DNA of 64,000 nt from Pirellulaceae bacterium (GTDB lineage Bacteria; Planctomycetota; Planctomycetia; Pirellulales; Pirellulaceae), in assembly GCA_029243025.1 (NCBI GenBank), contig JAQWSU010000022.1:1-64000 (forward strand), given 5' to 3'. Each line of letters starts with the position of its first letter. The first letter of the stretch is position 1. Both the position numbers and the translations under genes were made by a program. Shown piece by piece: positions 32,298 to 45,935 of this stretch. The notes below the pieces were generated by a model, which was given only the letters and a program-made list of their open reading frames with translations, did no database searches and was not told the origin of the DNA.

Positions 32298-32538
32298 CGT
32301 CGAAGGGGTGATTAATTGTTCGCTACGGGCAGCTCATTGTGAGCCAAGACCTTTTGTCGGCTTCTATCGATACACTTTTGCTGACCGGAAATAGAGCTTC
32401 TGGTAGACTGAGAAACGGGGCGCGTGTGGACGGGGTTGTCACACCGCGGACTCTGAAGGCGACAATTCTCAACTCAAATCTCGACCGAGGCTCGTTGTAC
32501 GAACGTACGAACTGCCGCGCGTGGCTGTAGGATCTTTG

Positions 32539-34068
32539 ATGGTACGCATATCTTTCATGTTCGTTTTTGTGGGAATGGCAACACCCGCATGTATGGCCAT
32601 TCCTTTCGATGATTTGTTGGATTCCTATGGGGTACTAGAAACAGTCGCGGGCACTGGTTTGATACGAGAAAAAACGGTCAACGGTTGGCGATCTGAGATG
32701 GAAGGTGGGTCGGCAACGGAAGCAGAGCTTTCACGGCCGCACATGACCATGGCAGATGCATCAGGCAACCTTTACATTGCCGACAAAGACGCCCATGCGA
32801 TCCGTTTAGTGACTCCTGATGGTGCCATTCATACGATTGCTGGGACAAATCTGGCGGGCTACAACGGTGACGGATTTGGCGTCGACACTCAGCTCAATGC
32901 GCCCAACGGTTTGTTTACTTTTCCAGATGGAACGACCTATATTCTCGACGTTGGCAATAGCCTGGTTCGCAAGTTGGGAACAGACGGTGCTCTCACGACA
33001 GTTTTTGAGGATCCTTTTGGAATACAGATAGGTCGTGGTTTATGGGTGAGCCCGGATGAGTCCAAAATCTTCTATTCCTCCGCAAGTGAAGTTCGGATGT
33101 GGCAGGCCGATGAGGGCGTTTCGATCTATGCGGACGGATTCATTGTGTTGGGCAACCTTGCAGTCGATCCCGCAGATAAAGAGCTTGTTGTCACTGATCG
33201 TGATGGGCATGGGGTTTACAAAGTTTACTCGGATGGGAGTCGCGATTTAATTGCCGGAAATGAAACAACGTCAGGCGGCGGTGATGGGCAACTGGCGACC
33301 AAGACGGGACTCAAGGAGGTGCGTGGCATCGCGTTTCATCCGGAGGGTGGCTATCTATTAGCGACGCATGACGATGGGCAAATCTGGTTTGTTGATGATG
33401 ATGATCGGATTCATTTACTAATTGACGGTGACGACGACGGTACGCATGCGGGAGATGGTTTGCCACTGGATACAGTCGGGCGAAAGATCAGTGAACCACG
33501 TGCCGTCACGTTATCACCGACTGGGGATTTGATTATTACGGAGCACGATGCGGGCTATATCCGTTTTGTTCGTGCCAATCGCCCAATTGGAGTCGAGGGC
33601 GATTTCAACCGGAATGGATTTCTGGATGTCGAGGATATTGATCTGCTATCCGTTGAGGTTCGTGCTGGCCGTCAGACCACTCGTTTTGATTTGAATTCGG
33701 ATCAGATTGTTGACGGTCAAGATCGAAGTGTATGGGTTGATGATTTGAAGCGTACCTATTTTGGTGATTCCGATCTGGACGGCCAATTCAACAGCCGAGA
33801 CCTGGTGCAGATTTTTCAAGCGGGGCAGTTTGAAGACGGTTTTCAACTCAATTCCAACTGGCAGTCAGGCGATTGGAACGGTGACGGTGACTTCACGAGT
33901 AGTGATTTTGTCATCGCTTTTCAAGCTGGCGGTTACGAAAAGGGCCCACGCCCAGCACGCTTGGCTGTTCCTGAGCCGAACTCTATTTTGCTGCTGCTAG
34001 TCGCTGGTTTAGCGAGTGTTTTTCGACGTGCCTTCTGCGGCACGTTTCAAACTCGCCCCGAGGGCTAA
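32539..34068 (+). CDS. Exported NHL-repeat protein with dockerin-like repeats and PEP-CTERM anchor
   Basis: 509 residues: a signal peptide (about 1-25), a beta-propeller of NHL-type repeats (about 35-340; e.g. PHMTMADASGNLYIADK and HAIRLVTPDG), then calcium-loop dockerin-like segments (DFNRNGFLDVEDID, DLNSDQIVDGQD, DSDLDGQFNSRD, DWNGDGDFTSSD; about 355-465), and a C-terminal PEP-CTERM sorting signal (VPEPNSILLLLVAGLASVF followed by RR, about 475-497). PEP-CTERM proteins are processed by exosortase and exported with exopolysaccharide. About 12 residues follow the Arg pair, longer than usual. ATG at 32539 has AGGA 6 nt upstream; GTG at 32521 is in frame. Confidence 0.85.
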   Translation: MVRISFMFVFVGMATPACMAIPFDDLLDSYGVLETVAGTGLIREKTVNGWRSEMEGGSATEAELSRPHMTMADASGNLYIADKDAHAIRLVTPDGAIHTIAGTNLAGYNGDGFGVDTQLNAPNGLFTFPDGTTYILDVGNSLVRKLGTDGALTTVFEDPFGIQIGRGLWVSPDESKIFYSSASEVRMWQADEGVSIYADGFIVLGNLAVDPADKELVVTDRDGHGVYKVYSDGSRDLIAGNETTSGGGDGQLATKTGLKEVRGIAFHPEGGYLLATHDDGQIWFVDDDDRIHLLIDGDDDGTHAGDGLPLDTVGRKISEPRAVTLSPTGDLIITEHDAGYIRFVRANRPIGVEGDFNRNGFLDVEDIDLLSVEVRAGRQTTRFDLNSDQIVDGQDRSVWVDDLKRTYFGDSDLDGQFNSRDLVQIFQAGQFEDGFQLNSNWQSGDWNGDGDFTSSDFVIAFQAGGYEKGPRPARLAVPEPNSILLLLVAGLASVFRRAFCGTFQTRPEG

Positions 34069-34220: not shown

Positions 34221-35609
34221 ATGAATGATCGAATTGCTTCCGTTTCAGACCCAGCCCGCATTGATGAACACCAGGAACGGATCGAGGGAGATACAAATCG
34301 TTCTCCTCTGCGATCAGAGTACCAGCAGCAAAATTTAGATGCAGCGACGCATCAGATTTTAGACGAGGACGCGGAGTATTTTTTGCACCAGTCCCTGTCA
34401 ACGCCCTGTATTGATGCACTCGTGGAAGCAGAGGGCATCTATCTGCATGACGTGGCTGGGCGAAAGATCATGGATTTTCATGGAAATGGCGTCCATCAGC
34501 TTGGATTTCGGCATCCGCGGGTCATGCAAGCTGTCAAAGATCAGTTGGAAGTTTTACCCTTTTGCACGCGTCGCTACACAAATCCCGTTGCGGTTGCTTT
34601 GGCAAAAAAACTGCGGGAGATTGCGCCGGGTAATTTGGATAAAGTGCTCTTCGCACCGGGTGGAACCAGTGCCATGGGGATGGCCATGAAGCTCGCCCGT
34701 ATTGCCACAGGGCGCTACAAGACGATTTCCATGTGGGGTTCCTTTCACGGCGCTTCCTTGGACGTTATTTCGGTTGGCGGACAGGCCTTGTTCAGCGACG
34801 GATTGGGCCCTTTGCTTCCGGGAGCTGTCCACATTCGTCCACCTGTTTCCGAGGACTGTCCCTTCGGATGTGAAAAGACATGTAATGCGGCATGTGCTGA
34901 ATATGTGAGGCACATTATGCAAAACGAAGGACAGATTGCTGCCGTCATTGCTGAACCGATTCGTTGGTCGACGGTCACGATTCCTCCTGCGGAGTACTGG
35001 CAACGTATCCGGAAATTCTGTGACGATCACGGGGCTTTGCTCATTTTCGATGAGATTGGAAGCGGCCTGGGACGTACGGGGCGAATGTTCGCTTTCGAAT
35101 ATTTTGGCGTTCAGCCCGACATCGTCGTGTTAGGAAAAGGTTTCGGTGGTGGCATTATGCCACTGGCTGGGATTATCGCGCGACGCGATCTGGATGTGGC
35201 CGGTGACCGCGCGATCGGCCATTATACCCATGAGAAAAATCCGGTGAGTTGTGCGGCTGGGCTCGCGACGATTGAAACGATCGTCGATGACAATCTGGTC
35301 GAGCGGGCCGTGGAGTTGGGGCAGTTGGCATTGGACGAATTGTCCCAATTGAAGGGAAAGCATGCGTGCATCCGCGATGTTCGCGGGGCTGGACTTCTGA
35401 TCGGTGTTGAATTGCAGGACCATCCGGATTTTGGTTCGTCTGTCCAGCTCGCTGAAAAAATAATGTACGCTTCGATGGCCCGAGGCCTTAGCTTCAAGGT
35501 GTCTGCGGGGAACGTGCTAACGCTTGTTCCACCTCTCGTGATCAGCGTCGAAGAACTCAAAGCTGCGATTCAGATCATCGATGAATGTCTGACGGACTTG
35601 AAGAAATAG
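34221..35609 (+). CDS. Class III PLP-dependent aminotransferase-family enzyme
   Basis: 462 residues of fold type I. The PLP site is clear: LLIFDEIGSGLGRTGRMFAFE (cofactor Asp) and VVLGKGFGGGIMPL with the Schiff-base Lys near 305. The N-terminal MDFHGNGVHQLGFRHP and the Cys-containing CPFGCEKTCNAACAEY segment resemble a subgroup that includes the lyase PbfA, which acts on (R)-1-hydroxy-2-aminoethylphosphonate, but I cannot confirm that assignment, and no phosphonate genes lie nearby. Other possibilities are omega-amino acid:pyruvate or acetylornithine-type transaminases. AGGTGA precedes the ATG. Stands alone, followed by a weak hairpin. Confidence 0.82.
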   Translation: MNDRIASVSDPARIDEHQERIEGDTNRSPLRSEYQQQNLDAATHQILDEDAEYFLHQSLSTPCIDALVEAEGIYLHDVAGRKIMDFHGNGVHQLGFRHPRVMQAVKDQLEVLPFCTRRYTNPVAVALAKKLREIAPGNLDKVLFAPGGTSAMGMAMKLARIATGRYKTISMWGSFHGASLDVISVGGQALFSDGLGPLLPGAVHIRPPVSEDCPFGCEKTCNAACAEYVRHIMQNEGQIAAVIAEPIRWSTVTIPPAEYWQRIRKFCDDHGALLIFDEIGSGLGRTGRMFAFEYFGVQPDIVVLGKGFGGGIMPLAGIIARRDLDVAGDRAIGHYTHEKNPVSCAAGLATIETIVDDNLVERAVELGQLALDELSQLKGKHACIRDVRGAGLLIGVELQDHPDFGSSVQLAEKIMYASMARGLSFKVSAGNVLTLVPPLVISVEELKAAIQIIDECLTDLKK

Positions 35610-36046: not shown

Positions 36047-36229
36047 ATGAAAAGTCTTGCCAGAAAAGTACGACGCTTTTTAGTTTCAGAAGACGGTCCA
36101 ACTGCGGTCGAATACGCCGTGATGCTGGCCCTTATCGTCATCGTTTGCTTGACCGCAATTCAAGCAATCGGTACGAATGCAAAGACGACCTTCCAGGAGG
36201 TTGCTGATCAAATAAGCACCGGTACCTAA
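36047..36229 (+). CDS. flp: Flp-type IVb prepilin
   Basis: 60 residues: a short basic leader, then the Flp cleavage site. The sequence EDG/PTAVEYAVMLALIVIV has Gly before the cut and Glu-Tyr at mature positions 5-6, the signature of Flp pilins, with a hydrophobic assembly helix after it. The prepilin peptidase CpaA downstream should process it. GAGAGG precedes the ATG at 36047. A terminator-like hairpin 34 bp after the stop separates it from the assembly genes, which would give the pilin the excess expression a fibre subunit needs. Confidence 0.92.
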   Translation: MKSLARKVRRFLVSEDGPTAVEYAVMLALIVIVCLTAIQAIGTNAKTTFQEVADQISTGT

Positions 36230-36262: not shown

Positions 36263-36295
36263 CCCCCACGGCGCGTCTGCGCCCTGGGGGTTTTT
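36263..36295 (+). terminator. Terminator/attenuator between flp and the Tad assembly genes
   Basis: 12-bp stem with one mismatch (cccccacggcgc/gcgccctggggg), loop gtct, then five T residues. Strong GC-rich stem immediately after flp. Confidence 0.88.
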
Positions 36296-36344: not shown

Positions 36345-36476
36345 ATGCTGCCAGTCGAGGAACGTTCAATGTACTCCGCGATTCCTGCAGACGCGTTGCA
36401 ATCAGTGTTTGAAATACTGTGCTACATTTTCAGCGCGGGAGCGGTGTTGATTAGCTTCTTAGTAACCTTGCGCTGA
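36345..36476 (+). CDS. Small membrane protein between flp and cpaA (unrecognised)
   Basis: A short frame of 43 codons (ATG 36345) or 35 codons (ATG 36369). From the second ATG the product reads MYSAIPADALQSVFEILCYI followed by a hydrophobic, Gly/Ala-containing helix and a C-terminal LR, i.e. one membrane span with almost no soluble part. GAGGAA lies 7 nt upstream of the second ATG. It sits just after the flp terminator and 37 bp before cpaA in the same orientation. No family recognised. Position suggests a small Tad accessory protein. Confidence 0.55.
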   Translation: MLPVEERSMYSAIPADALQSVFEILCYIFSAGAVLISFLVTLR

Positions 36477-36513: not shown

Positions 36514-37089
36514 ATGTCAGCGTTCTTGGAAGGTGTTGCTCAAAATTGGCACGTATGGGTCGTTTCCATCATTCTCGTGGTGGCGGCCGTCATCGATGGT
36601 ATCAAGTTGAAGGTGCCCAACTGGATCACCTTTCCGATGATTATCACCGGTTGGGTGTATAGCGTTTGGGCGGCGCCTTCACTCGGTATGACTTGGTACG
36701 AGGGGCTGGGGTGGAGTCTGATGGGTACCATCGTTGGGCTCGGTTTATTACTCCCTGCTTACGCAATCGGTGGTATGGGGGCAGGCGATGTCAAGTTGTT
36801 AGCAGGGATCGGTGCTTGGATGCACGCGACGCACACCGCTTACGCCTTTGTGATTTCCGCGTTTGTGGGAGCATTGCTAGCGATTTTGATGGTCTGGTAT
36901 CGCAAGGCCTGGGCGAAACATCGAAATCAGTTCTGGCTGATTTACAATGAAATTATGACCGTCCGCGATCCCAACAAGCTGAGTCAACTTGCTGCAGAAC
37001 GCAAAAGTTCGATGTTGCTTTTGCCGTATGGGATCCCGATTGCGATAGGGACAATCGTTTATTTTGCCTGGATGAATATGCTCGTTTGA
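36514..37089 (+). CDS. cpaA: Prepilin peptidase CpaA (A24 family)
   Basis: 191 residues with about five to six membrane spans. The two catalytic aspartates of A24 peptidases are visible: DGIKLKVPN near residue 28 (first Asp) and GGMGAGDVKLLA near residue 88 (GxGD motif). It lacks the N-terminal methylase domain of PilD-type enzymes, as expected for CpaA/TadV. It cuts Flp prepilin at the inner membrane. GGGGGA lies upstream of the ATG. Confidence 0.9.
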   Translation: MSAFLEGVAQNWHVWVVSIILVVAAVIDGIKLKVPNWITFPMIITGWVYSVWAAPSLGMTWYEGLGWSLMGTIVGLGLLLPAYAIGGMGAGDVKLLAGIGAWMHATHTAYAFVISAFVGALLAILMVWYRKAWAKHRNQFWLIYNEIMTVRDPNKLSQLAAERKSSMLLLPYGIPIAIGTIVYFAWMNMLV

Positions 37090-37367: not shown

Positions 37368-38435
37368 ATGCGTCCCAAATCCATGATTCTGATCGTTGTT
37401 GCTCTTGGCTGCGGGCTGATCGCTTCGATCGGTATCAGCCAAGTCATGGAGAATCGAGAAGTCAGCAGTCCGATTCCAATTCTGAAAGAGACCATTTACG
37501 TGGCCGTTCGTGATGTTCCTTTGGGGCAAGTCATGAACGCGCAAATGGTGAAGATGGAAGATTGGCCCCAAGACTCGATTCCTGAGGGCGCCATTAAAAG
37601 GCTTGAAGACATCGAGGGTAAACGCCCGTTGACCCGTTTGTATCCGGGAGAGCCCATTTTGAGTGCAAAGTTGGTGGATGCCAACAAATTTTTGGGGGCG
37701 TCCGACAAGATTCCAATGGGGATGCGGGTGGTGTCGGTGAAGGTTACCGTCGACAGTTCCGCGTCCGGTTTGTTGAACCCAGGTGATCGAGTTGACGTTT
37801 TGGTTTACCTGAGACGAGGCAAGGGAATTCTTTTCACGACAACGCGGACCATCATGAAGAACGTCACCGTTTTTGCCGTCAATGCTGTAACGCAGAGAGA
37901 GGTTGATGATACGGGTGCGGTGATACAAGCCAAGACTGTTTCTCTGCTCGTGACGCCGAGCCAGGTGGAAAAAATCATGTTGGCGAGTGAATTGGGTCGG
38001 ATCAAACTTTCGTTGCGACGTTCGGATGATGATCTTGAGGACGAGGCGAGCGGTGCCACGATTGCGGATCTAGACCAAGGAGTGGGGGGAACATCGCAAA
38101 CCACCGTTGTTGCGAAAGAAGAGCCGACCGGAATTACGAATTATCTACAGGAAATAACGACGCCGAAGGAGTCTGTGCCGGCGCCCGTCAGTCAGGTGTG
38201 GCAAATGCACATCCACACGCCACAAGATATCATGGTGTACAACTGGGACGATCGAGATGCGTTACCGCGTGAACTTGTCGAGCCGAGTTCGAAAGCAGAT
38301 ACCAGTTCACCTCCCAGCATTGAGGTTTGGAGCGATTCAGCCAGCAAGGCGGATGTCTCGGACGATTCGACGACAGCTGAAGTCGAATCAACGGACGATT
38401 CGTTCGACACGAATTTTGAAGACGTTCCCGAATAG
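37368..38435 (+). CDS. cpaB: Flp pilus assembly protein CpaB (RcpC)
   Basis: 355 residues: an N-terminal membrane anchor (about 5-25), a SAF-type domain (about 45-115; YVAVRDVPLGQVMNAQMV and RPLTRLYPGEPILSAKL) and the RcpC/CpaB domain (about 120-225; VSVKVTVDSSASGLLNPGDRVDVLVYL and KTVSLLVTPSQVEKIMLASELG). About 290-355 is a Ser/Asp-rich tail. CpaB is a periplasmic partner of the CpaC secretin, possibly binding peptidoglycan. AAGGTG precedes the ATG. The cpaC gene follows after 77 bp. Confidence 0.9.
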   Translation: MRPKSMILIVVALGCGLIASIGISQVMENREVSSPIPILKETIYVAVRDVPLGQVMNAQMVKMEDWPQDSIPEGAIKRLEDIEGKRPLTRLYPGEPILSAKLVDANKFLGASDKIPMGMRVVSVKVTVDSSASGLLNPGDRVDVLVYLRRGKGILFTTTRTIMKNVTVFAVNAVTQREVDDTGAVIQAKTVSLLVTPSQVEKIMLASELGRIKLSLRRSDDDLEDEASGATIADLDQGVGGTSQTTVVAKEEPTGITNYLQEITTPKESVPAPVSQVWQMHIHTPQDIMVYNWDDRDALPRELVEPSSKADTSSPPSIEVWSDSASKADVSDDSTTAEVESTDDSFDTNFEDVPE

Positions 38436-38512: not shown

Positions 38513-40183
38513 ATGGTCAAATCGTTACGATATTTCGCCGACATTCTGTTAATACTCCCCGTGATGCTGGTGGCCGTTTCGGTTCTCCAGGCCCAAACAG
38601 ACGGGACGCAAGTCGAATTCAGGATCTCCAAGCCAGATCAGAATTTGGAGATGGTGGTCAACACCAGTCGCATTCTTAGCTTGGATAAGGAAGTTCCACG
38701 TGCGATGGTGAACAACCCCAGCATTGTTCGGGTTGTACCATTATCACCAAACAAAGTGCAACTTTCTGCAACGAAGCCTGGTGTCACTCAGGTTAACCTC
38801 TGGGACGAAGACGGCAACCTTTACACCGTCAATCTAATCATTATCGGTGATGCCCAGGAACTGGAAATGCTGTTGCGATCGGAGTTCCCGCAGGCATCGC
38901 TGCGGGTGCGACCTCTCGCCACCGCCGTCGTGTTGTCGGGACGAGTCGACCGTGCGGAGGATGTAAGTCGAATCGTTCATATGGCGGAGGACTACTACCC
39001 AAAAGTGATCAACAATGTGACCCTCGGTGGTGTTCAGCAAGTGTTGTTGAATGTCAAGGTGATGGAAGTCTCCAGGACCAAGCTCCGGGCGTTAGGGTTT
39101 GACTGGGTTAATATTGGTAGTAGCGATGTCATTGTGCAAAGCGTAGCAGGGGTGCTTGGTGACGTGTCATCGAATACGTCTCTGGTTCCAGATACGGGTG
39201 GCTCGACAATCCGTTTTGGTCTCATTGGGAACAATAATGCGTTTTTCGGTTTCCTAGAGGCTTTGAGCGAAAATAACTTGTCGAAGATTCTCGCCGAACC
39301 CATGCTGACGACGGTGAGTGGTCGTCCGGCCAGCTTCAATTCCGGTGGAGAATTTCCGATCTTGGTGCCCCAAAGTCTGGGGACAATTGGTATCGAATAC
39401 AAGCAGTTCGGTACGCGAGTTGATTTCGTTCCAATCGTGTTAGGAAACGGGGCGATTCGTTTGGAAGTGCGTCCCCAGGTTAGCGAGCTGGACAACGCCA
39501 ATGGGGTCACCTTGCCTGGTACGGGCAATCGAGTGCCCGCCTTGCGGACTCGTTGGGCAGACACGGCTGTCGAGATGAGAGCCGGACAAACGTTGGCCCT
39601 AGCGGGACTAATTCAAACACGTATCGAAGCTCAAAGACGAGGGATTCCATGGTTAGCCGATTTGCCTTGGGCGGGTGCCGCATTTCGTCGTGTTGAGGAA
39701 GTAAAGAACGAGATCGAACTGGTGGTCACGGTGCGTCCGGAGCTTGTTGACGCGCTTGATCCTCACGAAGCGCCGAGTTGTTTGCCCGGAACGCAGACGA
39801 CGAGCCCGCGAGACACGGAGTTGTACGGTCGTGGTTACATCGAGGTGCCCCGTTGTTGTCCTGATGGGAGCTGCCCGAGCTGTCAAGCGAGCGGAATTCC
39901 AGCCCCGGCGGAGACGATTCTCGAGGGTCCAATCGATCCATCGCCCGAAAACTCTGCCACGCCTCTACCCGATTTGAATCAGGGCAGCTCATTCTCGCCG
40001 CGCCAATACTCGCCAGCAAGGGCAAAGCAACAGCAGCTGTCTTCGAAGGTGATCGCCGCTTCGGCATCTGTTCCGGTTCGAGGCCCCAACAAGCAGTCTG
40101 TCTTGCCAGGGCAAAGGCCGACCCAGCAAGATCCCGGTTTGTTCGGACGAGTCGGGTATGACGTTGTCGAGTTCCAAAAGTAA
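38513..40183 (+). CDS. cpaC: Tad pilus secretin CpaC (RcpA) with C-terminal cysteine cluster
   Basis: 556 residues: a signal peptide (about 1-28), an N-terminal pilus-secretin domain (about 40-120; SLDKEVPRAMVNNPSIVRVVP), a BON-like segment (about 125-170) and the secretin domain (about 180-415; LLNVKVMEVSRTKLRALGFDW, ILAEPMLTTVSGRPASF, ALAGLIQTRIEAQRRGIPWL, ELVVTVRPELVD). It forms the outer-membrane pore for the Flp pilus. A Cys-rich segment, RCCPDGSCPSCQASG, follows the domain near 447-461, and the last 100 residues are Pro/Ser/Gln-rich. Confidence 0.92.
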   Translation: MVKSLRYFADILLILPVMLVAVSVLQAQTDGTQVEFRISKPDQNLEMVVNTSRILSLDKEVPRAMVNNPSIVRVVPLSPNKVQLSATKPGVTQVNLWDEDGNLYTVNLIIIGDAQELEMLLRSEFPQASLRVRPLATAVVLSGRVDRAEDVSRIVHMAEDYYPKVINNVTLGGVQQVLLNVKVMEVSRTKLRALGFDWVNIGSSDVIVQSVAGVLGDVSSNTSLVPDTGGSTIRFGLIGNNNAFFGFLEALSENNLSKILAEPMLTTVSGRPASFNSGGEFPILVPQSLGTIGIEYKQFGTRVDFVPIVLGNGAIRLEVRPQVSELDNANGVTLPGTGNRVPALRTRWADTAVEMRAGQTLALAGLIQTRIEAQRRGIPWLADLPWAGAAFRRVEEVKNEIELVVTVRPELVDALDPHEAPSCLPGTQTTSPRDTELYGRGYIEVPRCCPDGSCPSCQASGIPAPAETILEGPIDPSPENSATPLPDLNQGSSFSPRQYSPARAKQQQLSSKVIAASASVPVRGPNKQSVLPGQRPTQQDPGLFGRVGYDVVEFQK

Positions 40184-40254: not shown

Positions 40255-41475
40255 ATGGGTAAAGTGCTGCGTTTAGCGATCGTCGATCCGGACGACACCA
40301 GTCGTGAGTCGCTCAAAAAGCTCTTGCTGAGTATGGACTCGGTTTGGCTGGAGGCGGAATGTTCTCGCTACGAATATTTCACCGATGTTGTCGATCAAAG
40401 CAATCCCGACGTGGGTGTTGTGACCATTGATGAGGATCCCGACAAAGCGATTCGGTTGATCGAAAGCCTGCGAACATCCACAAGCTGCAGTGTGGTGGTT
40501 ATCAGCAGTTCGAACGATGGGGCACTCATTCTTCAGGCGATGCGTGCCGGAGCGAAAGAGTTTTTAACGCAACCGTTGTCGGTGGGAGAGCTCATCGCAG
40601 CCTTTGACCGTATCAGTGACCAACATGCGGGTACGGGCGACGCAAAAACAAACGGTTGTCTGTGTTTGAGTGTCGCCGGTGGTAGCGGAGGAGTGGGCTC
40701 AACGAGCCTCACCGTGAACCTTGGTTGTGCGCTTGCGGCCGACGAAGCAAATTCCGTTGCATTGGTTGATCTCGACATGTCACTTGGAGACGCAGATGTA
40801 TTCCTGGATACCATCCCGGACTATACGATTGCCGATGTGGCTCAAAACGTTTCACGAATGGATTTTGCTCTGCTTAAAAAATCGATGACGAAACATTCGT
40901 CAGGGTTATATCTGCTGCCGAGGCCGGTGCAGCTACAGGATGCGTCCATTGTGAATCCGGAAGATTTCCGACGAGTACTAGGGTTGTTGAAAGCCAGTTT
41001 CACACACGTGCTGTTAGACCTTTCCAAAGCGTACAGCGCGTTGGATATGGCGGCACTCGAAGAATCCAGCGTTGTGCTGTTGGTTACTCAATTAGATCTG
41101 CCCTGTTTGCGCAACGTGGTGCGTTTGATGGTGTCGTTTGACGAAGTAGAAGGGCTGAAAGAAAAGACCCGAATTGTTGTGAATCGCGTGGGATTGGATG
41201 CTGGCCAAATCGGATTGAAGAAAGCTCAGGAAACGATTGGCCGCGATATTTTTTGGCAGATTCCCAACGATTATCGCACCATGGTCGAGATGCGCAACAA
41301 TGGTGTACCCTTACTGCAGCAGTTTCCCAAGGCTGCCATCACGCAGGCAATTTCTTCGCTGTCGCGCGTGCTCGCTGATGATGGAATCGAGAATCTACCA
41401 GTTGGGAAGTCGACCCCTCAGGGGGGGTGGCTCGGTTTCTGGAAAAGTAAGAGCGGTGCAAAGAGCGACGGTTAG
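40255..41475 (+). CDS. cpaE: Tad pilus localisation protein CpaE/TadZ
   Basis: 406 residues: a receiver-like N-terminal domain (about 1-120; LAIVDPDDTSRESLKKLLL), then a ParA/MinD-type domain (about 135-380). The deviant Walker A normally written KGGVGKT reads GGSGGVGSTSL, so both signature lysines are replaced, while the A' segment SVALVDLDMSLGDADVFL and the later ILLDLSKAYSALD region are retained. TadZ proteins place the secretion ATPase at the pole. About 285 bp separate it from cpaF. Confidence 0.88.
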   Translation: MGKVLRLAIVDPDDTSRESLKKLLLSMDSVWLEAECSRYEYFTDVVDQSNPDVGVVTIDEDPDKAIRLIESLRTSTSCSVVVISSSNDGALILQAMRAGAKEFLTQPLSVGELIAAFDRISDQHAGTGDAKTNGCLCLSVAGGSGGVGSTSLTVNLGCALAADEANSVALVDLDMSLGDADVFLDTIPDYTIADVAQNVSRMDFALLKKSMTKHSSGLYLLPRPVQLQDASIVNPEDFRRVLGLLKASFTHVLLDLSKAYSALDMAALEESSVVLLVTQLDLPCLRNVVRLMVSFDEVEGLKEKTRIVVNRVGLDAGQIGLKKAQETIGRDIFWQIPNDYRTMVEMRNNGVPLLQQFPKAAITQAISSLSRVLADDGIENLPVGKSTPQGGWLGFWKSKSGAKSDG

Positions 41476-41759
41476 GTCCTTATAAATCGAATATTCGGTT
41501 TTCGTTTCCGCTTTCAGAGCTTTTCTGAAATTTGTCTCGCCTTGACGCGGTAGGCGTTCGTGTCAGTGGGTTTTTCTGCAAATCCAACCAGTCTTCTTTC
41601 TGGAAAATTTGGCTCAGATGCCAGTTCTGTCTTTCGTCGTGAGCTATGTTTGCGAGGGCGAGGTGTGCCTTGTGGCAGTACCGTTTGCCCACTCTTTGCT
41701 GATAGATGCCGGCGATTTTGTCCCTATGCGGTCAATGGTTGAATAGATGGGAGTGGTTG
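41476..41759. other. cpaE-cpaF gap with hairpin and a short frame
   Basis: 284 bp with a hairpin at 41512-41530 (TTTCAGA/TCTGAAA, loop gcttt) without a real T-run, a 10-bp palindrome near 41488 and a 42-codon frame at 41618-41746. No recognised element. Confidence 0.45.
41618..41746 (+). CDS. Possible small ORF before cpaF (weak)
   Basis: A 42-codon frame starting MPVLSFVVSYVCEGEVCLVA and ending 13 nt before the cpaF start. No good Shine-Dalgarno and no recognised family; chance occurrence cannot be excluded. Confidence 0.2.
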   Translation: MPVLSFVVSYVCEGEVCLVAVPFAHSLLIDAGDFVPMRSMVE

Positions 41760-43082
41760 ATGAAAACAATTGGTGCCAGTTCGAGACTACAGGACTCATC
41801 TAAGAACGAAGTATTTGAAGGGCTGAAGCGAAGCATCCACAGTAAGCTGGTTGACAAGCTGGATCTCAATAAGGTGGGGGAGCTGGAGGGAGATACACTT
41901 CGACGTGAGATTCGCTTGGTTGTCGAACACCTTTGCGACACGCAAGACACGTTACTCAATCGAAATGAACGCGAGCGACTAATCGACGAGGTCCTCGATG
42001 AAACATTTGGTTTGGGACCGTTGGAACTGTTATTGAAAGACCCGAAGGTCTGCGACATTCTGATCAATGGTCCCCGTGACGTGTTTGTTGAACGTTTTGG
42101 GAAAATAGAGCGGACGAACGTCGAGTTTCGTGACAATGCTCACTTGATGCAAATCATTGATCGTATTGTGTCCAAGGTGGGACGCCGAGTCGATGAAACG
42201 TGCCCAATGGTTGATGCCCGTTTGACTGACGGCTCGCGTGTCAATGCGATCATTCCGCCTCTGGCTTTGGATGGCGCTGCGGTCTCGATTCGCCGCTTTG
42301 GTACGAATCCGCTTAAGTTGGAGGACCTTTTGAATTTTAAGGCCTTCACCCCGGAAATGGTGATGTTACTGGAGGGTGCGATCAAGGCGCGGCTTAATGT
42401 CGTGATCTCCGGCGGGACGGGATCTGGAAAAACCACGATGCTCAACACGCTGTCGAGCTTTATATCGAATAGTGACCGTATTATCACGATCGAAGACGCA
42501 GCCGAAATTCAGCTGCAACAGGAACATGTGGTTCGTCTTGAAACTCGTCCGCCAAATATCGAAGGCAAGGGATCGGTGACCGCTACCGATTTGGTTAAGA
42601 ACGCGCTTCGAATGCGGCCCGAGCGAATCATTATTGGTGAGTGTCGCGGTCCTGAGACGCTCGACATGTTACAAGCGATGAACACCGGTCATGAAGGGTC
42701 CATGACCACCCTGCATGCCAATACGCCACGAGATGGCGTGGCACGTATGGAAACGATGATCATGATGGCGGGCTTCGAATTGCCAATCAAAGCGATGCGG
42801 CAACAAATCGCGAGTGCCGTCGACATCATTATTCAAGCTAGCCGGCTACAAGGTGGGAAACGCCGGGTGACCCACATTACCGAGGTGGTCGGCATGGAGC
42901 AAGATACTGTTGTGATGCAGGATATTTATCGATACATCCAGGATGGCATTGACGAAGCGGGAGCGGCAAAAGGTCGCTTTGTGTCCACCGGTATTCGACC
43001 CAATTTTATGCCGCGGCTTGAGTCCGTCGGAATCAAGTTGCCAGGTAGTGCGTTCCGCGAACGAGTGATGTTAAACGACTGA
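41760..43082 (+). CDS. cpaF: Tad pilus/secretion ATPase CpaF (TadA)
   Basis: 440 residues of the GspE/VirB11 secretion-ATPase family. Landmarks are the Walker [12 protein letters not shown] near 218-226, the Asp box [13 protein letters not shown], the Walker [16 protein letters not shown] and the His box [15 protein letters not shown]. It powers assembly of the Flp pilus from the cytosol. A longer frame starts at 41706, but ATG at 41760 has GGGAG 6 nt upstream and fits the family start. Confidence 0.95.
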
Positions 43083-43128: not shown

Positions 43129-44091
43129 ATGTCAATCACGATTTTGGTTATCATCTCAGCATTTGTCGGAGTTGCCGCTCTGGTTGGCGGTCTCGCATCT
43201 TTAGTGAATGGTGCAACGGAAAGCATCGCCGAAGATCGACTCGGTGTTTTGACCGGCAAGGTGAAGAAGGGCAATGTCGAGCAGGACGCGACTGTGGTCT
43301 CCAGACCGCTCGACGATATGCCGAATGCGGTCGAGGAGATGGTCGCGAAGTTTCTGAACCTGACGCTGTTTTTGGAGCAAGCCAATATTAATTTCACGCC
43401 CAGCAAATTTCTGCTGATTGTGGGGGCGCTCGCAGGCGCTGGCGCGTTTGTTGTGCTCGTCGCTGGCTTGTCCCCGTTGTTCGCTCCGCTCGCAGCTCTC
43501 GCTCTGGCCAGTCTGCCGTTTGTGTACGCAGTTTTCGCACGGAAGATGCGTAAAAAAGCATTTGCGAAACAGTTACCCGAAGCGCTTGAACTGATTGCTC
43601 GCGCTTTGCGTTCCGGCCACAGTCTCGGAGCTGGATTCCAGTTGGTTGCATCAGAAATGCAAGATCCAATCTCAACCGAGTTCCGGCGTTGTTACGAGGA
43701 ACAGAATCTTGGTATTCCCATGAATGATGCTTTGGATTCGCTGGCCAATCGTGTGCCAAATCTGGACTTGCGATTCTTTGCGACGGCTGTCATTTTGCAG
43801 CGACAGACAGGTGGTGACCTCGCTGAGATCCTCGATAAGATCGGCTATTTAATCCGTGAGCGTTTCAAGATTTGGGGGCAAGTGCAGGCGTTGACCGGAG
43901 AAGGGCGGCTGTCGGGAATCGTCTTGTTGGCCCTACCTCCCGCTCTCTTCGCGGTCATGTTGAGGCTCAATTACGGCTACATCATGTTGTTGTTTGAAGA
44001 TCCGATGGGAAAACAAATGCTTGCCTTTGCCATCGTAATGCAGCTTGTCGGGGCAATCGTTATCAAGAAGATCGTCAATATTAAAGTTTAG
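43129..44091 (+). CDS. tadB: Tad pilus inner-membrane platform protein TadB
   Basis: 320 residues with N-terminal spans (about 1-25 and 100-140), a T2SF/GspF domain (about 148-270; LPEALELIARALRSGHSLGAGF and RQTGGDLAEILDKIG) and C-terminal spans (about 260-320). It forms the membrane platform with TadC that couples CpaF to pilin polymerisation. 46 bp after cpaF. Confidence 0.92.
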   Translation: MSITILVIISAFVGVAALVGGLASLVNGATESIAEDRLGVLTGKVKKGNVEQDATVVSRPLDDMPNAVEEMVAKFLNLTLFLEQANINFTPSKFLLIVGALAGAGAFVVLVAGLSPLFAPLAALALASLPFVYAVFARKMRKKAFAKQLPEALELIARALRSGHSLGAGFQLVASEMQDPISTEFRRCYEEQNLGIPMNDALDSLANRVPNLDLRFFATAVILQRQTGGDLAEILDKIGYLIRERFKIWGQVQALTGEGRLSGIVLLALPPALFAVMLRLNYGYIMLLFEDPMGKQMLAFAIVMQLVGAIVIKKIVNIKV

Positions 44092-44145: not shown

Positions 44146-45108
44146 ATGTTGTTTGCAATCGTTGACTCCACCTTCACGATCTCCGCTGCGATTTTTGTCG
44201 CGTTTTCTACTGGGGCGTGGTGGCTGATGGACCTAATCGCATCGCGAAACACACGAGCCACTGAACGTCTGAGTGAACTTCATGACCCACGGAGGCGAAC
44301 GAGTGAAAAAAATCCCGAGAATCGATCTGAAAAAGTTGTGAACGTCCTGAAAAAAGCGTCTCCGGCATTGGCGAAACCGTTGCAGCCCAAAACCGAAGGT
44401 GAGCAAGATAAGCTGAAATTGAGACTCGCACATGCTGGGTTTCGTAATGAGACTGCCCCCGGCTTTTTCCTCTCCATGAAATTCGTCGGACTGATCGGCG
44501 GATTCGTTTTAGCTGGCGGGTCAGTGTTGTTCACCGGTGTTAGTCAAGCCGTGCTGATGCGGGTCGTCGCCTGTGGGGGAGTCCTGTTTTACCTGCCTGA
44601 TGGGATCGTTTGGCTTCTGAGTCGGCGACGAAAGCAAGCCATTTTTCTTAGCCTGCCCGATGCGCTTGATTTGATGGTCGTTTGTGTCGAAGCTGGTTTG
44701 GGCTTGGATCAGGCCATGCGTAAGGTTGCTGAAGAAATGACCAAATCACATCGAGTCATTGCCGAAGAATTCGCCATCTGCAATTTCCAACTCCAAATGG
44801 GGAAGACCCGCCGTGAGGTGTTGCAAGATCTTGGGAACCGGACTGGAGTTGATGATCTGCGTGCGTTAGCTGCTGTGTTGATTCAAGCTGAAAAATTCGG
44901 TGCAAGCGTAGGGCAGGCGTTGCGTGTGCAAAGTGACTCGATGCGTACGAGGCGACGTCAACTGGCGGAAGAAAAAGCAGCAAAAACGGCTGTGCAGCTA
45001 ATCTTTCCGTTGGTGCTCTTTATTTTTCCGGGGATCTTTGTCGTGTTGGTGGGACCCGCAGCCATCACGATGGTGCGAGAAATGTTCCCCGCGATGAATG
45101 GCGGGTAG
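44146..45108 (+). CDS. tadC: Tad pilus inner-membrane platform protein TadC
   Basis: 320 residues, same overall plan as TadB: N-terminal membrane span, charged region, two central spans (about 105-145), the T2SF domain (about 165-285; SLPDALDLMVVCVEAGLGLDQAM and GASVGQALRVQSDSMR) and a final span (about 285-310). AAGGGA precedes the ATG. It is 54 bp after tadB and completes the core inner-membrane machine. Confidence 0.92.
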   Translation: MLFAIVDSTFTISAAIFVAFSTGAWWLMDLIASRNTRATERLSELHDPRRRTSEKNPENRSEKVVNVLKKASPALAKPLQPKTEGEQDKLKLRLAHAGFRNETAPGFFLSMKFVGLIGGFVLAGGSVLFTGVSQAVLMRVVACGGVLFYLPDGIVWLLSRRRKQAIFLSLPDALDLMVVCVEAGLGLDQAMRKVAEEMTKSHRVIAEEFAICNFQLQMGKTRREVLQDLGNRTGVDDLRALAAVLIQAEKFGASVGQALRVQSDSMRTRRRQLAEEKAAKTAVQLIFPLVLFIFPGIFVVLVGPAAITMVREMFPAMNGG

Positions 45109-45383
45109 TCGATCGAACGCAGCCGATTGGCAATGGAGGTTGACTCATGAAAGAGTCTGACTGCGTAAAATTGAGCGGTTATGAGAGTGAATGGTGTTAG
45201 CACCATTTGGTTCACGGTAGGACTTCTTCGGCGGCGATACTTAAGGTTAGAGATCGATAGCCCACGCTAGCAGCTCGTTGATGAAACAGGGATTCGTCAG
45301 CCTCCTGGGAATGACTCTTGCAGCGAGAGTCGTGGGAGACCTTAAGGGAAAACGTTTTCCCAATGCAGATGGAGATGCATAAT
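45109..45383. other. tadC downstream leader with tiny frames and a palindrome
   Basis: 275 bp. A 17-codon frame (45147-45200) follows a strong GGAGG. A 33-codon frame (45281-45382, MKQGFVSLLGMTLAARVVGD at its start) ends 1 nt before the next gene's ATG. A perfect 16-bp palindrome lies at 45346-45361. These could be leader peptides, but none is certain. Confidence 0.35.
45346..45361. promoter_or_regulatory. Perfect 16-bp palindrome GGGAAAACGTTTTCCC
   Basis: Self-complementary without spacer, 22 bp before the start of the secreted protein gene at 45384. Could be an operator or an mRNA hairpin affecting its translation. Confidence 0.4.
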
Positions 45384-45935
45384 ATGCCGCGAGTCAGGAT
45401 CGCTTTATTGACGGGCCTCGCCCTTCTGATCACATTCTCATCAGTCGAAGCTGGCTGGCACGAATTCTGGCATCGGGTTCACACCGATTTCCATCGAAAT
45501 AACTGCTGGCCAGAGCCGTTTACGACAATTGATCGTCGCGCAGTGCGAGCGCCTTTTCACGCGATGGTGCGGAATGGCTGGCGCCTGCAAAACACGCTTG
45601 GAGCAGCCTATTTTCATCATGAGACCAACGTGTTGAACGATGCGGGTAAACGAAAGCTTTACTGGATCCTGGCCAACTCACCAGAACAGTTTAAGACGGT
45701 CTACGTCTACCAGTCTTATGATTCTGAGATTTCCGAAAAACGACTCGACTCCGTTCAACAGACGCTGGCGCAATTGCTGCCGGATCAAGCGATGCCGTCA
45801 GTGCTACCATCGTTGGCCGAGCCCGTGGGGGCGTCAGCTGATTATGTCGATCAGGTCGACCGCAAAATGCGTTCGACGATCCCAAATCCCCGTCTACCGT
45901 CCTTCCAAGCTGCAGGCGGTTTGAGTGGCGGGTAA
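45384..45935 (+). CDS. Small exported protein linked to the Tad locus (unrecognised)
   Basis: 183 residues with a signal peptide (about 1-23, ending SSVEAG). The mature part has a HEFWHRVHTDFHRNNCWPEP segment rich in His and Trp, then a folded-looking region (ANSPEQFKTVYVYQSY) and a low-complexity Pro/Ser/Gly-rich end. No known domain. Position after tadC and before a TPR lipoprotein suggests an envelope accessory function. Start chosen at 45384 for the signal peptide; longer in-frame starts at 45318, 45363, 45369 and 45375 exist. A strong terminator follows. Confidence 0.6.
   Translation: MPRVRIALLTGLALLITFSSVEAGWHEFWHRVHTDFHRNNCWPEPFTTIDRRAVRAPFHAMVRNGWRLQNTLGAAYFHHETNVLNDAGKRKLYWILANSPEQFKTVYVYQSYDSEISEKRLDSVQQTLAQLLPDQAMPSVLPSLAEPVGASADYVDQVDRKMRSTIPNPRLPSFQAAGGLSGG

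Follow-up and report, generated by a model that had tools for sequence, protein, structure and literature searches.

Does the 284-nt gap between flp and cpaA in the Tad locus of this Pirellulaceae bacterium hold a further gene and, if so, what could its product do in the pilus machine? The question comes from the original prediction, made on the window (the whole stretch of 64,000 nucleotides analysed here), in which a short hydrophobic frame at this place was proposed to encode a small Tad accessory protein or a partner of the prepilin peptidase.

The Tad locus and the frame between flp and cpaA

The features of the locus are the following.

36047-36229, + strand: flp, the major Tad pilin (PF04964, E 1.5e-9)
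36263-36295, + strand: intrinsic terminator after flp, a hairpin (36263-36290) followed by five T (-23.2 kcal/mol, z -5.4 versus 200 shuffles)
36345-36368, + strand: extension from an alternative in-frame start, the upstream ATG at 36345 (43 codons, not favored)
36357-36362, + strand: ribosome-binding site GAGGAA
36369-36476, + strand: microprotein gene, a 35-codon ATG frame plus stop, product MYSAIPADALQSVFEILCYIFSAGAVLISFLVTLR
36514-37089, + strand: cpaA/tadV, prepilin peptidase (PF01478, E 1.6e-17)
37368-38435, + strand: cpaB/rcpC (PF16976 and PF08666)
38513-40183, + strand: cpaC/rcpA secretin (PF00263 and PF13629)
40255-41475, + strand: cpaE/tadZ-like ATPase (PF01656 and PF00072, with a weak PF16968 match below its cut-off)
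41706-43082, + strand: cpaF/tadA motor ATPase (PF00437, E 1e-63)
43129-44091, + strand: tadB-like platform protein (PF00482)
44146-45108, + strand: tadC-like platform protein (PF00482)

The two PF00482 genes would be tadB and tadC, respectively, judging by gene order. The hairpin after flp was missed by a simple terminator scan. Given the strength of this terminator, the microprotein gene probably heads the assembly genes and would be transcribed either by read-through or from a promoter of its own. In relatives, a scan of 122 intervals between flp and the microprotein gene found a hairpin with a T run in 56, so by this measure the flp terminator is common, and not universal, among them.

The ATG at 36369 is followed by 34 further codons and a stop ending at 36476, and GAGGAA lies 6 nt 5' of it. 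The frame, its binding site, its position after the flp terminator and its hydrophobicity were all as originally described: the Kyte-Doolittle maximum is 2.36 (19-residue window), and the product consists almost entirely of one membrane span. The 37-bp distance to cpaA likewise holds, with the stop at 36476 and the cpaA ATG at 36514. Two lengths, 35 and 43 codons, had been left as alternatives and both ATGs are indeed in frame; however, the shorter one is favored, since 95 of the 134 rows of the family alignment extend to column 1 in local alignment, all 95 have Met there, and a congener has a 35-codon ATG frame at the same site (product MLWTLPNDMLASAIEMLCYVFSMGAVLMSFLFTLK). The 36345 start was therefore set aside, as both the family rows and the congener begin at the column of 36369. 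A Shine-Dalgarno-like word was found in 50 of 64 relatives, versus 17% of random positions. The length of the frame is uninformative in itself: when the 284-nt gap was dinucleotide-shuffled 5,000 times, 36% of the shuffles contained a + strand ATG frame of 35 or more codons. Only 0.04% of these shuffles held one that was equally hydrophobic.

The surroundings of the locus gave three additional observations. Between tadC and a TPR gene, positions 45318-45935 hold a 205-residue frame (TTG start as listed) that matches neither Pfam nor NCBIfam at E<=1e-3 and is possibly another undescribed part of the Tad locus. Upstream of flp, positions 34221-35609 score above the cut-off for PbfA, (R)-1-hydroxy-2-aminoethylphosphonate ammonia-lyase, which points to phosphonate catabolism beside the Tad locus. 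Positions 32521-34068 encode a PEP-CTERM protein (TIGR02595, above cut-off), and the genome of the window has four exosortase matches.

Conservation among Pirellulales and selection on the protein

The family search and GTDB contigs supplied 110 cpaA loci, or 99 once duplicates were removed. A seed profile reached at least 12 bits in 64 of these 99. A second profile, built from those 64, reached at least 10 bits in 68 of the 99, in each case no more than 500 nt upstream of cpaA. As the seed was drawn from the same loci, the counts for real loci lean upward, and the size of the background is given by the strand, place and shuffle controls: no match of at least 10 bits occurred elsewhere in the 99 loci on either strand, and + strand frames of shuffled intervals reached 10 bits in 0 of 1,980 and 7 bits in four. 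The 31 loci without a match include one with only 285 nt of upstream sequence (L088), one with 680 nt upstream and no flp (L097), and one with a 7-bit frame in the right place (L124). Lacipirellula limnantheis, a culturable species, is among the carriers of the gene (L090). Among 134 Pirellulales copies, 104 are 36 residues long, all have 34-38 residues and 130 start with ATG; the start was taken as the one nearest to the profile start, so the lengths lean that way. In 64 loci, between 33 and 420 nt separate the microprotein gene from cpaA. A homologue search of planctomycete flp-cpaA intervals had been suggested as a check, and in these intervals both the frame and its hydrophobic pattern are conserved.

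For the comparison of synonymous and nonsynonymous differences, pairs were picked by CpaA identity (75-98%), not by the identity of the microprotein. The 377 same-length pairs gave a pS of 0.69 and a pN of 0.26 (ratio 0.37), with pN below pS in 372, while the DNA of the same pairs read in the +1 and +2 frames gave ratios of 1.10 and 1.78. When pairs were restricted to independent ones, sharing no genome, pN was below pS in 38 of 38 (pooled ratio 0.34). Between the two congeners, pN was 0.32 and pS 0.59. Purifying selection thus acts on the amino acids of the microprotein, and the second suggested check also came out in favor of the prediction, pN falling below pS in the microprotein frame only. 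Judged from sequence evidence, 36369-36476 is a real gene for a 35-residue single-span microprotein, whose translation we infer. Together, frame conservation, purifying selection and synteny (see below) strongly support the proposal that the frame is a genuine small gene with a link to the Tad locus.

Anatomy and predicted topology

Across the 134 copies, the N-terminal half has an initial M, often followed by Y-P, then P6 (84%), E/D8 (96%), A13 (67%) and Q/E at 15. The span and the end of the protein have C18 (78%), T22 (78%), A26 (73%), S29 (63%) and a terminal basic residue. Column 35 is R in 126 of the 126 rows that reach it, a count to be read with the fact that local alignment trims misfits; the congener protein ends in Lys. 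Counted over whole copies, K or R occurs within the last five residues in 133 of 134 (131 R, 2 K, 1 neither), and the first 12 residues contain 179 D/E versus 7 K/R. According to the positive-inside rule, the basic end of a membrane protein faces in. Together with this rule, the charge distribution suggests an N-out/C-in topology, in which the acidic N-terminus would be outside and the terminal Arg/Lys inside.

Over residues 13-33, conservation repeats best with a period of 100 degrees (p 0.0036). Small or polar residues cluster on a single face of the helix (15, 18, 22, 25, 26, 29 and 33; p 0.014), which reads Q/E, C, T, small, A, S, small. AlphaFold2 gave a single helix over residues 7-34 (mean pLDDT 84; block means 92 and 95 over residues 11-30). 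With this period and this helix, the microprotein has the single span and the conserved packing face that characterize proteins of the CydX type. The conserved face implies that the microprotein should pack against another membrane helix, whichever the partner.

For the window protein, searches of Pfam, NCBIfam and PDB chains gave no match at E<=10; searches of Pfam and NCBIfam with the 64 members yielded only weak, scattered matches to unrelated families. Among the literature matches listed, judged by the titles and the opening abstract lines of open papers, none concerns such a protein. The global small-protein catalogue (PMC11364881) may hold the family without a name.

Distribution

A match at E<=0.05 was obtained for 96 of the 149 genomes of the family sample, a count that includes matches inside 330-630-residue frames, which are the only matches in G102, G127 and G142. 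Second matches of the same type occur in G091, G106, G118 and G130, and all of those inside such long frames are probably due to chance. The order sample gave matches at E<=0.01 in 107 of 296 genomes. Phylum-wide, where few of the 294 genomes searched are Pirellulales, three matched, one of them (G243) weakly and inside a 168-residue frame.

Within the order, presence is patchy. In whole-genome searches, the Blastopirellula marina genus (g18) and genus g58 have no match, and the CpaA of both is 68-74% identical to that of the window. Intervals without the microprotein, inspected by eye in 10 groups for a substitute ORF, held nothing conserved, and this includes the intervals of g18 and g58. 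On a FastTree phylogeny of CpaA (147 rows, 144 labelled), presence changes at least 17 times, with at least five changes forced by the starred branches; the Planctomycetales frames described below and the weak cases L079, L084, L115 and L131 were labelled as present, and L088, L097 and L124 were left out. Our reading is that the changes are mostly losses, a distinction from gains that the number of changes in itself cannot make. This patchiness argues against essentiality, and the microprotein seems dispensable for the Tad machine.

In other families of the class, a search of 118 genomes gave 20 loci from families f111, f112, f113 and f115, with no like frame among those listed. Several of these loci have tandem flp copies before cpaA instead of a microprotein-like frame (within L238-L257, e.g., L249, L251, L256 and L257), and in L249 and L251 the tandem flp ends about 27 nt from cpaA, which is the site of the microprotein in Pirellulales.

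A positional counterpart in Planctomycetales

Of 30 Planctomycetales loci, 29 have a one-span frame of 34-39 residues at the corresponding site, starting mostly with MFP[FY]; the frames were picked by eye and then found again, and 13 of the 30 loci come from one genus. All 29 start with ATG, and 22 of the 29 have a Shine-Dalgarno-like word. In pairs with at least 40% protein identity, pN was below pS in 69 of 69 (ratio 0.33), 65 of these pairs being within that one genus (ratio 0.32) and the remaining four having a ratio of 0.40. Outside that genus, 43 same-length pairs, unaligned and partly saturated, all had pN below pS, with a ratio of 0.70 versus 0.92 and 1.20 in the other frames. Profile comparison of the Pirellulales and Planctomycetales sets (hhalign) gave a probability of 8.7% and a P of 0.0038 in the same register (11-33), which is only suggestive. 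We thus consider the Planctomycetales frame a positional counterpart, possibly homologous to the Pirellulales microprotein.

Synteny and relocated copies

For the analysis of synteny, 139 regions were chosen by the presence of the microprotein, namely, the window and 138 regions fetched for matches of the family and order samples; most near-threshold matches and some clear ones (e.g., G133, G470, G556 and G622) were left unfetched. The gene directly downstream on the same strand is cpaA in 136 of the 139 regions. One of the remaining three is at a contig end, and in two the microprotein gene is relocated. Most of the genomes with matches have one microprotein match each.

In G160 (L392, G160:C105:49000-51500), the microprotein lies behind a second flp, on a contig other than that of cpaA, and an inverted repeat is visible by eye between this flp and the microprotein; the same genome has another flp at its cpaA locus, where the microprotein gave no match. 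In G150, the microprotein is alone, with neither flp nor cpaA adjoining, and has nearby a frame that we take to be pdxJ-like from a reading of its translation. The relocated copies (L392 and L393) were compared with a same-genus relative that has the usual location, and they keep its sequence, F[FL]P[IV]EAISSLWE[IM][IV]C, with the end W[IL][LF]APR. Since these copies are relocated and yet conserved, a cis-acting leader is unlikely and the product should act in trans.

Motor and platform genes were recovered less often: in 141 Tad regions, cpaF, tadB and tadC were found in 51, 50 and 47, respectively, versus cpaA in 138. These genes may frequently be located outside the 10 kb fetched, or elsewhere, and many of the regions are shorter than this or truncated at a contig end.

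Proposed role and alternative explanations

The reading that we lean towards, by a modest degree, is that the microprotein belongs to the planctomycete Tad machine as an accessory subunit with a single span, pilin processing (Flp/CpaA) being its most likely site of action. Placing it there follows from its near-fixed position between flp and cpaA and from the separate flp-microprotein unit of G160. The microprotein would sit in the inner membrane with its acidic N-terminus (P6-x-E/D8) outside, and a helix of about residues 7-34 would cross the membrane once, with its conserved face packed on another membrane helix. As a small accessory part of the pilus machine that acts in trans, it could dock on CpaA, the prepilin peptidase, or on Flp stored in the membrane, and once docked may stabilize or tune processing and the hand-over to the TadB/TadC platform.

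Covariation gave little help in naming the partner. Mutual information (MI) of the microprotein with Flp, CpaA, CpaB, CpaC and TadZ was in no case clearly above the null, which consisted of swaps among near relatives, and the sets were small (Meff 12-88). The weak signals are a top pair with CpaB (z 8.3, p 0.065), which is the strongest covarying pair of all, and a top-10 mean with CpaC (p 0.02). Raised mean MI was seen with flp and cpaB (0 of 200 permutations) as well as with cpaC (p 0.01), not with cpaA (p 0.37). The p-values carry no correction for five partners and three statistics, and the raised means may stem from relatedness. The signals point, if anywhere, away from CpaA and thus speak against the CpaA half of our reading. 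For the 12 CpaA residue features that differ most by microprotein presence, the tree gave five independent pairs, too few for significance. Of the originally proposed function, the link to the Tad locus stands, with cpaA adjoining in nearly all regions. The role of peptidase partner is one of several options: MI with CpaA is not above the null, the two genera without the gene keep a similar CpaA and the G160 copy sits away from the cpaA locus. The more specific proposal of a dedicated partner of prepilin processing shared by the two orders, either a subunit or modulator of CpaA/TadV or an escort of Flp, is one that we offer only tentatively and with considerable doubt.

The same weak signals are what an alternative placement of the microprotein could build on, namely, in the TadB/TadC platform or in the CpaB/secretin alignment complex, with its adjacency to cpaA reflecting no more than its place at the head of the assembly operon. 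Being downstream of the flp terminator, the gene may well be read together with cpaA-cpaB-cpaC-tadZ and onward, and a conserved helix face fits any polytopic partner. However, the covariation with CpaB and CpaC is uncorrected, TadB and TadC were found in a minority of the regions, and the flp-microprotein unit of G160 lies away from the cpaA locus; overall, we consider this placement unlikely. That relocated unit, together with the orphan copy of G150, weighs strongly against a leader peptide or translation-coupling ORF that would control cpaA in cis, with an irrelevant product. Such an ORF would be expected to be short and directly upstream of cpaA, as the microprotein is in almost every region, but its amino acids are conserved far beyond its codons and with a helical period, the gaps to cpaA are too variable to suit coupling, and the cis position is not always kept; we rejected this explanation as very improbable. 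The orphan copy, the patchy presence, the size and the hydrophobicity would suit a single-span toxin or an unrelated stress microprotein found there by chance, which nevertheless appears improbable considering the near-fixed Tad synteny across Pirellulales and the single match in most genomes that have one.

Two further candidates were suggested by features of the protein itself. In Aggregatibacter, flp-2 lies between flp-1 and tadV, and the microprotein might by analogy be an Flp paralogue that has decayed into an uncleaved mini-pilin, an A-x-[EQ]-[LMY] motif being alike in both proteins. Against this, profile comparison (hhalign) gave a probability of 0.3% (E 0.24), PF04964 matched none of the 64 members at E<=1, and the Gly -1/Glu +5 cleavage site is missing as well: when position 15 is taken as +5 (our register), the leading residues at -1 do not include Gly, the +5 residue is Q in 54% and E in 38%, and the order of charges is opposite to that of Flp. 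Membership in the Flp/Fap pilins was rejected on these grounds, and decay from an Flp paralogue seems quite improbable to us. The PEP-CTERM layout consists of a Pro-x-acid motif, a span and a terminal Arg, and this architecture is what the microprotein resembles when regarded as a free-standing exosortase sorting peptide; moreover, two of the 64 members touch VPDSG-CTERM (best E 0.43-0.49), and the window has its PEP-CTERM protein. Yet the microprotein has no cargo domain and is present in exosortase-free genomes, with no PF09721 match in several genomes that have strong microprotein matches, among them G014, G019, G068 and G083 (93-99% complete), so that an exosortase signal was rejected and is barely credible.

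Should the accessory-subunit reading hold, loss of the microprotein would be expected to change piliation or the processing of Flp. A conserved membrane component of 36 residues that opens the set of assembly genes, widespread in one planctomycete order and with a positional match in another, would imply that the known list of Tad parts is incomplete for planctomycetes. We know of no earlier small partner of a type IV prepilin peptidase, and the dedicated partner, if true, would be the first. The case also illustrates how far a microprotein can be followed without proteomics, from sequence alone, through frame conservation, the helical period and the relocated copies.

Comparison with known systems

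The systems nearest to the proposed subunit belong to other membrane machines. CcmD, KdpF and AcrZ are likewise single-span microproteins within a larger membrane machine; to our knowledge, none of these and similar proteins is part of a pilus or a prepilin peptidase, and a further difference is that no family model matches the microprotein credibly. Within the same locus, the Flp/Fap pilins (PF04964), including the tandem flp before cpaA, are also small, one-span proteins encoded at a similar place, but the microprotein differs from them in lacking a leader-like basic N-terminus, a G|xxxxEY site and profile similarity, and in its opposite charge order. Another Tad accessory protein, as the microprotein is proposed to be, is CpaL of Caulobacter, the deletion of which reduces and does not abolish piliation according to the text available (PMC12607857). 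CpaL differs in being a predicted minor pilin fused to a vWA domain, and is hence far larger.

CydX, as described in the available text of its source, is a 37-residue subunit of the cytochrome bd oxidase, and its presence follows a CydA loop (PMC4325964), a type of link that the comparison of CpaA residues looked for. No NCBIfam or Pfam match links it to the microprotein. The two are nevertheless alike in having one hydrophobic helix, the same length, a place in the operon of their membrane complex, and a divergent sequence with few fixed residues (PMC4325964). In contrast, CydX has its N-terminus in the cytosol and its C-terminus in the periplasm (PMC4325964), opposite to the topology suggested for the microprotein, and is required for enzyme activity, whereas the microprotein is absent from many loci. 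The N-outside, C-inside orientation is that reported for CcmD in the accessible part of its source (PMC10903887), and AcrZ, as far as its available text goes, interacts with the transmembrane part of AcrB (PMC7267776). By analogy, then, CydX, CcmD and AcrZ are the closest working models for the microprotein of the planctomycete Tad locus.
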